From assembly GCA_023395555.1 (NCBI GenBank), contig JAEWYQ010000077.1, positions 1-45,666 of the forward strand: 45,666 bases of DNA, written 5' to 3'. The position numbers and the translations under genes are program-made. Shown here piece by piece: positions 26,990 to 31,048 of the stretch. The notes beneath the pieces were generated by a model that was not told where the DNA came from, searched no databases, and saw only the letters and a program-made list of their open reading frames with translations. Each line of letters begins with the position of its first letter. The stretch's first letter is position 1. Source of the DNA: Bacillota bacterium (GTDB lineage Bacteria > Bacillota > Clostridia > Lachnospirales > Lachnospiraceae).

Positions 26990-27802
26990 TTAGAACTTCG
27001 GAACTACCGCCGAGTCATAGGTTTCATTGATGAAATCTCTTACGGCATCGCTTTTCAGGGCTTCAATCAGAGCCTTGATATCCCCTCTGTCCTCATTTCC
27101 CTTGAGAACAGCTATGATATTGCCATAGGTTTCGGCAGCGATGGAATCCTTGCCCTCGAAAGCGATGGCATCCTTTGATACATTCAGTCCGGCTTCAATC
27201 GCATAGTTGCCGTTGATGACCGCCATGGCGGCATCCTGCCGGGAGCGGGCCAGCTGGGCAGCTTCGATTTCCACGATCTCCAGCTTCTTGGGATTCTCAA
27301 CAATATCATTCTTGGTTGCCTTCAGGCCGATTCCTTCCTTCAGCTCGATCAATCCCTCAGCCTCCAGCAGCAGAAGAGCTCTTGCTTCATTGGTAGCATC
27401 GTTGGGAACTAAAATCTGCGCTCCCTCGGTTAATTCGTCAAAGGATGCAACCTTGCCGGGATATACACCATAGGGCTCATAATGAATGATTGCGGCAGAT
27501 ACCAGATTCGTCTTATTCTCCTCATTAGACTGCTCCAGATAAGGCAGGTGCTGGAAGTAGTTGGCGTCCAGTTCTCCGCTTTCCAGAGCCAGATTCGGCT
27601 GAACATAATCGGCATATACAACAATCTTAAGCTCATAGCCCGCTGCTTCCAGAGCAGGCTTGGCCTTCTCCAGTATCTCGGCATGGGGAGTGGCGCTGGC
27701 GCCGACAACCAGTATCTTATCCTCCACATTCTTTTTCTGGCAGCCGGTTGCGGCCACCGTAAGCAGGGTAAGTACTACTAAAATAGATATAATTTTTTTC
27801 AT
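26990..27802 (-). CDS. metQ: Methionine-binding lipoprotein MetQ
   Basis: This 270-residue lipoprotein has a signal sequence with a lipobox ending at Cys21 (LTVAATGC). The NLPA/MetQ fold shows in KILVVGASATPHAEILEKAKP, LDANYFQHLPYLEQ, and YGVYPGKVASFDEL. It captures methionine outside the membrane for MetN-MetI. The ATG at 27802 has AGGAGG eight bases upstream. It is third in the metN-metI-metQ operon, 87 bases after metI. Confidence 0.95.
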   Translation of the reverse strand: MKKIISILVVLTLLTVAATGCQKKNVEDKILVVGASATPHAEILEKAKPALEAAGYELKIVVYADYVQPNLALESGELDANYFQHLPYLEQSNEENKTNLVSAAIIHYEPYGVYPGKVASFDELTEGAQILVPNDATNEARALLLLEAEGLIELKEGIGLKATKNDIVENPKKLEIVEIEAAQLARSRQDAAMAVINGNYAIEAGLNVSKDAIAFEGKDSIAAETYGNIIAVLKGNEDRGDIKALIEALKSDAVRDFINETYDSAVVPKF

Positions 27803-27889
27803 AGATAAATCCTCCTTCTTTCTTTTCATTTTATTTTTTCAATTCCTGTATTCTTTCTCTCTTAATCCTGCTTCTGTTTCCCTCGGTCC

Positions 27890-28550: not shown

Positions 28551-29558
28551 CTACCTCACCTCCTCATAGGTTATCTGGTGTGCCTTCAAATAGTGAATAA
28601 TCCTGTTATATCCGGATGCATCATCCGGCAGCTGGATTACCATCTGCCCGAAGGCTTTGCCGTCAATATCCTTTGTATCTGCAAATAATATGTTTACCGG
28701 TGTCTTACATTCCAGAACCATATTGGATATCACCGGTTCAAAAGAGGACTTGCCGTCAAAGATGATACGGCACTGCCTTTCTCCGGTATAATTGTCAATA
28801 TGGGGCTCTCCTGAGAACACCAGCTGCCTGGCGATGGCGGACTGGGGCCGGACAAAGACCTCTTCCACCTCGCCCACCTCTGCAATCCGGCTCTGATCAA
28901 TGATCGCCACCCGGTTACAGATTTCTTCGATTACAGTCATCTCATGGGTAATAACAATTACGGTAATCCTCAGCCTCCGGTTGATCTCCTTAAGCAGGCT
29001 CAGGATAGAACGGGTGGTGGTGGGATCCAGTGCACTGGTGGCCTCATCGCAGAGCAGAATCTTGGGATTGGTGGCAAGAGCCCTGGCAATGGCTACCCTT
29101 TGCTTTTGACCGCCGGACAGCTGGGCCGGATAAGCTCCTGCTTTCTCCGATAGTCCCACCACCTCCAGCAGCTCCTTTGCTCTGGCCCTGGCATCTTTCT
29201 TGGATACCCCGGCCAGCTCCAAGGGAAAGCAGATATTTTCCAGAGCCGTTCTCTGCATCAGCAGATTGAATTGCTGGAAGATCATCCCCATGGACTGCCT
29301 CGCCTTCAGCAGCTCCCTCTTCGGCAGACTTCCCAGATCGGCCCCGTCAAAGATCACCCGGCCGCTGGTGGGACGCTCTAAAAAATTAATACAGCGTACC
29401 AGCGTGCTCTTTCCCGCTCCGCTGAGTCCGATAATTCCGAAGATCTCTCCTTCAAATATAGCAAGATTAATATCCTCCAGCGCCTTTACCTCGCTGTTCT
29501 TGCTCTGGAACACCTTGCCCAGCCCCACAAGCTGAACGATCGGTTTTTGATATGCCAC
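28551..29558 (-). CDS. metN: Methionine ABC transporter ATPase MetN
   Basis: This 335-residue protein has Walker A (GLSGAGKST, residues 44-52), the ABC signature LSGGQKQR, Walker B ILLCDEATSALD, and a C-terminal NIL-type regulatory domain (about 262-335). The NIL domain is known to bind methionine and inhibit transport. I chose the GTG start at 29558 because GGAGG lies eight bases upstream and the family match begins at once. Longer in-frame starts at 29606 and 29630 would be translated through a hairpin. It is the first structural gene behind the Met-rich leader and terminator. Confidence 0.95.
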   Translation of the reverse strand: MAYQKPIVQLVGLGKVFQSKNSEVKALEDINLAIFEGEIFGIIGLSGAGKSTLVRCINFLERPTSGRVIFDGADLGSLPKRELLKARQSMGMIFQQFNLLMQRTALENICFPLELAGVSKKDARARAKELLEVVGLSEKAGAYPAQLSGGQKQRVAIARALATNPKILLCDEATSALDPTTTRSILSLLKEINRRLRITVIVITHEMTVIEEICNRVAIIDQSRIAEVGEVEEVFVRPQSAIARQLVFSGEPHIDNYTGERQCRIIFDGKSSFEPVISNMVLECKTPVNILFADTKDIDGKAFGQMVIQLPDDASGYNRIIHYLKAHQITYEEVR

Positions 29559-29628: not shown

Positions 29629-29662
29629 AAAAAAACAGGACCGCTATGATAAGCTTCCTGTT
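29629..29662 (-). terminator. Intrinsic terminator in the metN leader (attenuator)
   Basis: On the minus strand AACAGGA (29662-29656) and TCCTGTT (29640-29634) form a 7-bp outer stem. An inner GCT/AGC stem lies inside it, and seven T residues overlap the end of the stem and follow it. It lies between the Met-rich leader ORF and metN, with no coding gene ending there. This is the position of an attenuator. Confidence 0.75.
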
Positions 29663-29681
29663 CTGTAATTCATCCTATCTC

Positions 29682-29703
29682 AAAGAGAAGATGCAATCTC
29701 TTT
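29682..29703 (-). promoter_or_regulatory. Upstream leader hairpin, possible anti- or pause structure
   Basis: AAAGAGA (29703-29697) and TCTCTTT (29688-29682) form a 7-bp stem with an 8-base loop on the minus strand, between the leader ORF and the terminator. The CUUCU within it can also pair with AGGAAG of the terminator's 5' arm, so the two structures may compete. This pairing is my manual reading only. Confidence 0.4.
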
Positions 29704-29726
29704 TTGCACATATGAAAACATCACAT

Positions 29727-29807
29727 TCACCTATCACGCAAATATGTCATCGCCGGCATGCACATGCCACACATATTGTTGCACATAGTACGCATTGATG
29801 TTCTCAT
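29727..29807 (-). CDS. Met/Cys-rich 26-residue leader peptide of metNIQ
   Basis: A 26-codon ORF begins at an ATG preceded by AAGGAGGACGATT, an excellent ribosome site. It contains Met at residues 1, 5, 8, 12, 15, 17 and 20 and Cys at 9, 13 and 16, and ends in TGA. Seven Met in 26 residues is far above any usual protein composition. It lies between a strong promoter and an intrinsic terminator, just ahead of methionine importer genes. Ribosome stalling at Met codons when charged tRNA-Met is scarce would suit attenuation. No S-box or T-box landmarks are seen in this leader. The CNNMCGMC stretch also fits a CxxxCxxC spacing, so a metal-binding peptide is an alternative. Translation is strongly suggested but the mechanism is inferred. 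Confidence 0.72.
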   Translation of the reverse strand: MRTSMRTMCNNMCGMCMPAMTYLRDR

Positions 29808-29868
29808 AATCGTCCTCCTTGCTTCGGCTTCCATTCTGTTTTATAAAATATATCCTAGGAATGGGGTT

Positions 29869-29897
29869 AGTATACATGATAGAATTTGAGTTGTCAA
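29869..29897 (-). promoter_or_regulatory. Promoter of the leader-metNIQ operon
   Basis: Perfect -35 TTGACA (29892-29897), a 17-base spacer and -10 TATACT (29869-29874) on the minus strand. The leader ATG lies about 55 bases downstream of the expected start. A promoter this strong fits control after initiation rather than at the promoter itself. Confidence 0.88.
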
Positions 29898-29959: not shown

Positions 29960-30853
29960 TTATTCTTCTTGATTTTTGACGGGCTCGTTACCAATGAGCA
30001 TCGGCGAGGCCGGATCATGCCTGGCGCAATTTCTGAGGATGGAGTCTTCGCTATGATTGGCATAGCAGTAGATACAGCCGTTTCTGCAAGTATTATAGGC
30101 CCCGATATCCACGCTTTGAATACAGCCGCAGCCGCTGCGCTGGCTCTTGTCCCTCTTCCCCTTCAGCGGATGCCCAAGAATCCCTTCTATCGTATTCTGA
30201 TCAATGCAGGACGCGGGACAGATTCCTTCAAGGGATAAATCCACTGCTTCGCAGCATGCCCGCAGTTCCATCTGATGCTTTCCAGCAATTCCGGCAAACT
30301 CTGCGGCTAATCTGCGCATCTGTTCCTCGCTTATTGTCTTGATTACACGCTCCTTCACCAGCCTGGCCAATTTACTGTATTGGTCAACAAAGCTGATCGT
30401 GCAAAGCTGCGTATATCCGGAGAGTCTCTCACAAAGATTGGTGAATTCCCTATAATGATATTCTAAGGGAATACGGTCATTTATTATGACAGGATCGTAT
30501 CTCCAGAGCACCCTGTGCCTTCCCAGACGCCGGGACAGCTGCTGAAAGGTTGAAACAATCTCCTGTTTATCTCTAAGATGGGGTTCTATCTCCTTGCCAT
30601 AGGGTGTTAAGGTGAATTGAAAATAATAAGAATATCCCATCCCCTCCAACCGCTCCAGCTTATCCATCAACGGAAGCGGATCCTTTGTCCAGAATACAAT
30701 ACAGTCTATGTTCTCCGGTGACAAATCTACCTTGCAAATCTGGGCATGATTCATAGGATTCCGGTATAAGGCATAGCCTTCCTCCAGCCGGTTCATCAGC
30801 CACTGCGAATAATAGCACGGCAGATCCGTTCTTCTTGATGCCGAAAGTATCAT
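29960..30853 (-). CDS. DUF1848 family protein with C-terminal CxxxCxxC cluster
   Basis: This 297-residue protein starts MILSASRRTDLPCYYSQW, followed by ALYRNPMNHAQICKVDLSPENIDCIVFWTKDP, the hallmark of DUF1848. Near the C terminus CRNGCIYCYANHS gives a CxxxCxxC set like that binding the [4Fe-4S] cluster in radical SAM enzymes, with extra Cys at CCEAV and CPASC. That motif is normally near the start of a radical SAM barrel, so its place here is unusual. The ATG at 30853 is chosen because it matches the family start and has GGAAGG upstream; the 30937 start does not. No function is established to my knowledge. It is transcribed toward the metN promoter. Confidence 0.85.
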   Translation of the reverse strand: MILSASRRTDLPCYYSQWLMNRLEEGYALYRNPMNHAQICKVDLSPENIDCIVFWTKDPLPLMDKLERLEGMGYSYYFQFTLTPYGKEIEPHLRDKQEIVSTFQQLSRRLGRHRVLWRYDPVIINDRIPLEYHYREFTNLCERLSGYTQLCTISFVDQYSKLARLVKERVIKTISEEQMRRLAAEFAGIAGKHQMELRACCEAVDLSLEGICPASCIDQNTIEGILGHPLKGKRDKSQRSGCGCIQSVDIGAYNTCRNGCIYCYANHSEDSILRNCARHDPASPMLIGNEPVKNQEE

Positions 30854-30940
30854 ACCTCTTACCTTCCTTTTAAAGATAATATAGTTATAATTATTGCGGG
30901 AGCTCAGCGGAAATATGCAACACGAAGTGCAGCACAAAAC

Positions 30941-30973: not shown

Positions 30974-31048
30974 TCGAGGCGACAAGATTTGAACTTGCGA
31001 CCTCTGCGTCCCTAACGCAGCGCTCTAGCCAAGCTGAGCCACGCCTCG
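30974..31048 (-). tRNA. tRNA-Pro (anticodon AGG)
   Basis: The 75-base minus-strand sequence folds fully. The acceptor arm is CGAGGCG/CGCCTCG with discriminator A, the D stem GCTC/GAGC, and the anticodon stem CTGCG/CGCAG with loop TTAGGGA. The T stem is GCAAG/CTTGT with loop TTCAAAT. Anticodon AGG and the C1-G72 pair with A73 indicate proline. CCA is not encoded. A34 would normally need deamination to inosine to read several Pro codons. Confidence 0.93.

Follow-up and report, generated by a model that had tools for sequence, protein, structure and literature searches.

A candidate methionine leader-peptide attenuator upstream of metNIQ in a member of the Lachnospiraceae

Leader-peptide attenuators exist for tryptophan, histidine, threonine, leucine and other amino acids, and the S-box (the S-adenosylmethionine (SAM)-I riboswitch, RF00162) is a termination-type control of methionine and SAM genes. 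In this work we analysed a short methionine-rich open reading frame (ORF) that precedes the methionine importer genes metN, metI and metQ (metNIQ) in a stretch of 45,666 nucleotides (nt) from a Lachnospiraceae bacterium (contig JAEWYQ010000077.1 of assembly GCA_023395555.1); this whole stretch is called the window in the following. For methionine (Met), the starter of every protein, the open-licence literature searched gave one proposal of a leader attenuator: the metL leader peptide upstream of metNIQ in Streptomyces lividans TK24, which the relevant part of an RNA-seq study lists among the attenuator structures identified there (PMC8079986). The original prediction had regarded a Met leader attenuator in Clostridia as possibly new. 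None was found for Clostridia in the papers searched, where absence is not absence in print, but the metL entry, as far as that part of the study goes, means that a leader at metNIQ itself had already been proposed (PMC8079986). Histidine leader peptides of Firmicutes are described in a survey of terminators from 2010, which in the sections concerned also places a T-box at a methionine transporter (PMC2965389). A comparative study of Actinobacteria states, where it deals with methionine operons, that no conserved RNA structures were seen there (PMC1262725).

All elements named in the original prediction (promoter, AGGAGG, ORF of 26 codons, terminator and metN) are present on the minus strand of the window, in the order promoter, AGGAGG, ORF, intrinsic terminator and then metN-metI-metQ, and a recount of the ORF gave the same seven Met codons (six internal) and three cysteine (Cys) codons. 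We read this leader as a ribosome-mediated transcription attenuator of the trp/his kind that codes mainly for Met (and Cys), and give this reading a probability of roughly 0.85 on the strength of sequence comparison and RNA folding. The elements of the leader are the following:

29869..29897, minus strand: promoter of the sigma-A type, TTGACA-17 nt-TATACT, with 11 of 12 consensus bases matching
29814..29819, minus strand: Shine-Dalgarno (SD) sequence AGGAGG of the leader ORF; an SD-like purine stretch also precedes the ORF in the aligned relatives
29727..29807, minus strand, including the TGA stop: leader peptide ORF MRTSMRTMCNNMCGMCMPAMTYLRDR, 26 codons plus stop, with four internal ATG codons invariant in 23 of 23 sequences
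29797..29807, minus strand: region 1, AUGAGAACAUC, the 5' strand of the helix P1 (candidate anti-antiterminator), which includes the start codon and pairs with 29722-29712
29712..29735, minus strand: region 2, GAUAGGUGAAUGUGAUGUUUUCAU, common to P1 and the antiterminator, conserved at the RNA level and found in all three frames among relatives
29648..29673, minus strand: region 3, AUGAAUUAC...ACAGGAAGCUUAUC, the 3' strand of the antiterminator (helix GAUAG:CUAUC) and the 5' arm and loop of the terminator
29629..29662, minus strand: intrinsic terminator (region 3:4) with U tract, from folding and sequence

Boxes similar to TTGACA/TATAxT were recognized by eye ahead of the leader ORF in 16 relatives; elsewhere the upstream sequence was too short or the box was not plain. 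The terminator stem AACAGGA...TCCTGTT extends from 29662 to 29634, followed by a run of seven T residues (29635-29629), two of which lie inside the stem. This terminator was missed by a simple terminator scan and is visible in the RNA fold.

Relatives were collected by a MetN scan of genome contigs, which yielded a set of the best 80 loci, and the 26 nearest of these were inspected for the leader. A complete leader ORF was present at 22 of these 26 metN loci; the contig of L001 begins inside the ORF, that of L020 begins at metN, and the ORF is absent from L024 and L026. The alignment of the 22 relatives with the window (A1, 23 sequences) revealed that the last conserved ATG follows the start codon at 48, 51, 54, 57, 66 or 69 nt, always divisible by 3 (23 of 23 sequences), whereas the next conserved block, measured from the same start codon, is in frame 0, 1 and 2 in 7, 12 and 4 sequences, respectively. 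Because the first distance is frame-locked and the second is spread over three frames, the Met block is kept as a reading frame and the GATAGRTGAATGTGRTGTTTTCAT block as RNA. The third base of the two conserved Cys codons is variable (minor frequencies 0.48 and 0.39), with the first two bases nearly fixed. The comparison suggested together with the original prediction thus came out in its favour: the relatives keep the Met codons, the SD-like site and the terminator, and drift is seen at other codons.

The spacing of Cys and Met in the peptide could bind a soft metal, and the ORF might then yield a functional small Met/Cys-rich protein, for example a metal-binding one, instead of a sensor acting in cis. 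Length, C-terminus and number of Cys residues vary among the leaders, however, the frames diverge right after the Met block, and the ORF stands before metN together with a terminator and an antiterminator, so that we regard such a protein as hardly credible. Searches of Pfam and NCBIfam gave zero matches for the four leader peptides searched, the one of the window included.

The antiterminator is formed by the sequence GATAG just 3' of the Met block, which pairs with CTATC in the 5' arm of the terminator. When the stretch from GATAG to CTATC was folded with exclusion of the 3' arm of the terminator, the GATAG:CTATC helix was part of the minimum free energy structure in 23 of 23 sequences, accompanied by a UGU:ACA helix and, around GUUUUC, by an inner helix that varies. 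Within the outer helix a UA pair is exchanged for CG through UG intermediates (16, 4 and 3 sequences), seven sequences carry a matched insertion of one pair, and 134 of 145 cells are paired in register versus 23-40% when the strands are slid (with the row of L009 misplaced in this count). Permutation of the partners among species reached the true pairing in 0 of 20000 trials for the outer and 47 of 20000 for the inner helix, and 10 of 20000 trials equalled it for the terminator stem, where the own partner was the single best in 21 of 23 rows. The outer stem of the terminator is paired in 98.8% of cells in the 23 sequences, with one AU pair turned into GC in 4 of them; the corresponding value for P1 is 95.6%, and at one of its pairs both bases have changed. 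When the columns of P1 and terminator were counted jointly, 96.9% of cells were paired in comparison to 41-59% for slid strands, and the covariation score was reached by 0 of 500 shuffles.

Three pairings compete in the leader, namely a putative 1:2 (ORF start with GUGUUUUCAU), 2:3 (GAUAG...GUUUUC with ...ACAGGAGGCUAUC) and 3:4 (the terminator). Pairings 2:3 and 3:4 are mutually exclusive because the antiterminator uses ACA and CUAUC of the terminator 5' arm, and 1:2 and 2:3 are so because the inner strand of the antiterminator is the partner of P1. The search for an alternative antiterminator with covariation, which had been suggested together with the prediction, therefore ended with a mutually exclusive structure that shows compensatory changes.

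Since GAUAGRUGAAUGUGRUGUUUUC belongs to the best-conserved RNA of the leader, it could also be the aptamer of a metabolite riboswitch (for Met, SAM or another ligand), with the ORF being incidental. We consider this very improbable: the Met block is frame-locked, the two pairings account for most of the conserved letters of the GAUAG block, and Agathobaculum and other designs without this block still keep Met-rich ORFs. In addition, Rfam supplied only two weak matches, to unrelated families (E values 0.44 and 3.1): no family reached the cut-off in the window leader, and a permissive scan of the leader returned just RT-6, on the opposite strand, and snoR28, both below threshold. A SAM riboswitch or a T-box (RF00230) in the leader was rejected, as none of the Rfam covariance models for these RNAs matched, which confirms the earlier statement that neither S-box nor T-box is recognisable there.

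The attenuator model makes predictions about the position of the ribosome. We defined the Met block as the Met codons at least 14 nt before GATAG; four sequences have additional Met codons closer to it. GATAG follows the last Met of the block at a distance of 15-26 nt in 23 of 23 sequences, and the stop codon of the leader is located between 14 nt before and 58 nt after this motif. Because of the distance of 15-26 nt, a ribosome halted within the Met block by a shortage of elongator Met-tRNA would cover region 1 and leave region 2 free, so that the antiterminator could form and metNIQ would be transcribed. With ample Met-tRNA the ribosome would reach the stop codon and cover region 2, the terminator would form and the importer would be switched off; without translation P1 would form and transcription would terminate as well. 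Under severe Met starvation, with initiation failing, a renewed shut-off is predicted. Stalling, read-through and the response to methionine are, in all of this, what we infer from the arrangement of the leader.

Folding of partial transcripts that end just after region 3 is in accordance with this scheme. Taking a probability P of at least 0.5 as favoured, the antiterminator was favoured with the ribosome at the last Met of the block in 23 of 23 sequences and with the ribosome at every Met of the block in 16 of 23, in contrast to 0 of 23 without ribosome (highest P 0.07) and 1 of 23 with the ribosome at the stop codon.

Several observations weigh against the attenuator as described. In L005 the ribosome at the stop codon fails to block the antiterminator. 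At equilibrium with the full terminator present, the antiterminator of the window reaches 0.24-0.31 at five of the six internal Met codons and 0.04 at the last one, and it never exceeds 0.05 in 16 of the 23 sequences, although values above 0.7 were obtained at some Met in L005, L010 and L014. As this equilibrium effect is weak, the model needs the usual kinetic advantage of the hairpin that is formed earlier. The partner permutation for P1 (3270 of 20000, own partner single best in 10 of 23 rows) was not significant, P1 is weak in L010, and the own partner was the single best in only 6 of 23 rows for the outer and 3 of 23 rows for the inner helix of the antiterminator, in permutation tests that all ignore the relatedness of the sequences. 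A terminator was found by a loose search, which does not discriminate, behind 61 of 61 of the Met-rich leaders described below, but also in 41 of 61 cases on the reverse strand and in 71 of 101 leaderless regions; a strict search found it in 29 of 61 leaders versus 4 of 61 on the reverse strand and 19 of 101 leaderless regions, with the terminator of the window below the cut. Finally, the start of a Met sensor itself requires formylmethionine. Taken together, the interpretation of the original prediction as an attenuator is supported by the conserved Met codons, by the leader containing neither SAM nor T-box RNA and by the antiterminator with its compensatory changes.

The occurrence of such leaders was analysed in a pool of 179 metN loci, from which 3 with short upstream sequence and 15 duplicates were removed and to which the window was added, giving 162 distinct upstream regions, mostly from Clostridia. 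Leaders were called within 520 nt upstream of metN as ORFs of 8-60 codons with an SD-like site, a rule that misses leaders further upstream (L018 of Mobilitalea sibirica, L107, L109). A short ORF with at least four internal Met codons was found in 61 of 162 regions. The controls gave 1 in 162 for the reverse strand, 7 among 1620 dinucleotide-shuffled sequences and 3 among 452 windows taken from downstream of metN; with at least five internal Met codons the counts were 55 regions versus 1, 2 and 0, respectively. The same count for other residues gave, forward versus reverse strand, 29 versus 2 for Cys, 27 versus 4 for Arg and 25 versus 5 for Ala. By the beginning of the peptide, the 61 leaders form four groups (23, 12, 8 and 4 members) and 14 singles, and because three pairs of the singles look alike (L099/L101, L114/L116 and L140/L157) about 15 peptide groups result. 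In one genus, 8 of 9 genomes had a metN match, and all 8 of these carried a leader of the type MFAAKAMNNSMMMAMCGMMMVMCRMF. On a MetN tree (FastTree, 160 rows) presence and absence of the leader require about 20 changes; for the label 'none', 13 changes are forced by the starred branches alone. The class is not universal: of 29 new loci from a search across the whole class of bacteria (L171-L199, the top matches in 391 genomes), L186 and L193 were the only ones to score. These comparisons indicate that the class of Met leaders is widespread and was probably remade several times.

A second design is represented by the Agathobaculum leader, of type MLSIRMDMCMMCGFARFSAMQR. Here GCUCGUUUU (ARF codons, located after the Met block) pairs with a stretch rich in purines that overlaps with the stem of the terminator. 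This pairing is present in all 13 segments that were folded, a set that excludes L029 (Agathobaculum butyriciproducens), and in the consensus fold the SD region pairs with the same purine-rich stretch. This design repeats the logic of the Herbinix design, and by eye there is no sequence likeness between the two beyond Met and Cys. The covariance model R1 was rejected as a finder for the whole class, since it detects the Herbinix/Mobilitalea design only, and the class was collected by way of metN; the model gave one strong match each (E value 1.2e-14 or better) in 6 of 12 chosen genomes and, under stricter filters, matches in two genomes out of 397 in the family, including the centre genome G001. 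Two weak extra matches to the model of the Herbinix type, L087 and L088, were seen in genome G003 (E values 0.0096 and 0.07). Leaders beginning with MNQ or MNH occur in L078, L124, L130 and L186 and contain up to 11 internal Met codons. Met-rich short ORFs, MKQYAAMMMEMHMGVCPMGMCP... (L107:329) and MQNRAAMMMEMVPCMMSMMLMCMN... (L109:230), were also observed some 1.2 kb ahead of the MetN match, where they may precede a different operon gene.

The diversity of the peptides bears on the idea of a nascent-peptide arrest leader, in which the peptide makes the ribosome stall in response to free Met, SAM or a different ligand, as with Trp in TnaC. Clustered Met and Cys residues could form a peptide motif, and Met-Cys recurs; the approximately 15 peptide groups, on the other hand, share no motif beyond Met and Cys, the spacing of Met is variable, and a stall induced by Met would turn the importer on when Met is plentiful. 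An arrest leader is therefore improbable.

A sensor of both sulfur amino acids, in which stalling for Met-tRNA or for Cys-tRNA turns on methionine import, is a considerably stronger competitor of the reading as a Met attenuator, and we keep it as a serious though less favoured possibility because Met-Cys recurs in unlike peptides and in the proposed metL peptide of Streptomyces. The dipeptide Met-Cys is present in 60 of the 61 Met-rich leaders (the exception is L146), and Cys follows an internal Met 142 times versus about 47 expected from the pooled composition (220 Cys and 409 Met in 1914 residues, with many close relatives among them). With 220 residues versus 409 internal Met, Cys is the second commonest residue of these leaders, and its conserved codons occur as both TGT and TGC. 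The proposed S. lividans metL peptide, as given in the part of the study that presents it, also contains CMCRRMC (PMC8079986). However, Cys is less constrained than Met (L014 has 8 internal Met codons with 1 Cys, L016 has 2 Cys), and the Met-Cys pairing may serve another end, such as codon-pair speed. With respect to the original prediction, the comparison and the folding thus support a sensor that stalls at Met, and the recurrence of Met-Cys means that Met might be only a part of the signal. More tentatively still, one might propose an unrecognised and repeatedly reinvented class of attenuators by which Clostridia, using leader peptides rich in Met-Cys before metNIQ, count charged Met-tRNA and Cys-tRNA together; as the sensor itself has to be started with Met, a biphasic output would follow, with induction at moderate shortage of Met and shut-off once initiation fails. 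This initiator problem gives a clean and falsifiable prediction, and the recurrent Met-Cys offers a direct way to test if a single bacterial sensor reads the combined supply of the two sulfur amino acids.

Other methionine controls occupy the same place in other Clostridia. Rfam searches of the same kind in the 80 loci L001-L080 identified an S-box before metN in L030 and a T-box in L042, L067 and L075. Leader peptide, S-box and T-box, three different types of sensor, are hence seen upstream of one gene. Among 13 genomes with Met leaders, 12 contain one S-box each (L159-L170), in all 12 cases just upstream of metK, and none was found in G008. A Met leader would explain how metNIQ can respond to Met in genomes whose S-box lies at metK, and it would frequently control the uptake of methionine in Clostridia, at the position where S-box and T-box RNAs stand elsewhere.

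The genes downstream of the leader were assigned as follows:

28551..29558, minus strand: metN (ATPase with NIL domain), Pfam PF00005 (ABC_tran) and PF09383 (NIL), 86% identity to a Herbinix metagenome-assembled genome
27890..28549, minus strand: metI (permease), PF00528 (BPD_transp_1), named by position and family
26990..27829, minus strand: metQ (substrate-binding lipoprotein of the NlpA family), PF03180 (Lipoprotein_9)

The start of metN is probably the GTG at 29558, which has its own SD sequence and from which relatives align from residue 1; the listed ORF extends upstream to a TTG. On the other side the leader is adjoined by a gene for a DUF1848 protein with a Cys-rich C-terminal part (29960-30937, minus strand), which is likely unrelated, and upstream of this gene lies a tRNA gene (30974-31048, minus strand, 60.9 bits). 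Rfam tRNA matches show that tRNA genes also end about 80-225 nt upstream of the leader ORF in L012-L017, L019, L022 and L023.

Among the described systems, the S-box is present in the same organisms as the Met leaders and absent from the window leader. Short ORFs with codons for a sulfur amino acid are also known as regulatory upstream ORFs in uORFC-8-2, with Cys codons before cysS of Rhodobacterales (PMC8632094), and in the Cys leaders of Actinobacteria (PMC1262725); as presented in the relevant parts of these papers, they differ in that Cys, other genes and other phyla are concerned (PMC8632094, PMC1262725). In Lactococcus lactis a Met T-box likewise acts through premature termination on the operon of a high-affinity Met transporter, in response to charging of tRNA-Met, but according to the section that treats it the RNA binds uncharged tRNA directly and no leader peptide is involved (PMC7058034). 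The closest system, metL of S. lividans, resembles our locus in that a short leader ORF containing Met and Cys (MSTTSDRTPATEATTTPGARCMCRRMCAF) before metN is proposed to be an attenuator (PMC8079986). It differs, in the account given in that part of the study, by its actinomycete host, a leaderless transcript, the reported lack of a typical Rho-independent terminator and 3 Met in all (PMC8079986). The same account contains neither comparative nor antiterminator evidence, and by eye the peptide has no likeness to that of the window beyond Met and Cys (PMC8079986). With the trp, his, thr and leu attenuators the window leader shares the ORF rich in codons of the regulated amino acid, the competing 2:3 and 3:4 pairings, with a putative 1:2 pairing beside them, and the intrinsic terminator (compare PMC2965389). 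In contrast to these classical attenuators, its amino acid, Met, doubles as the initiator, its gene encodes an importer and its host belongs to the Clostridia.
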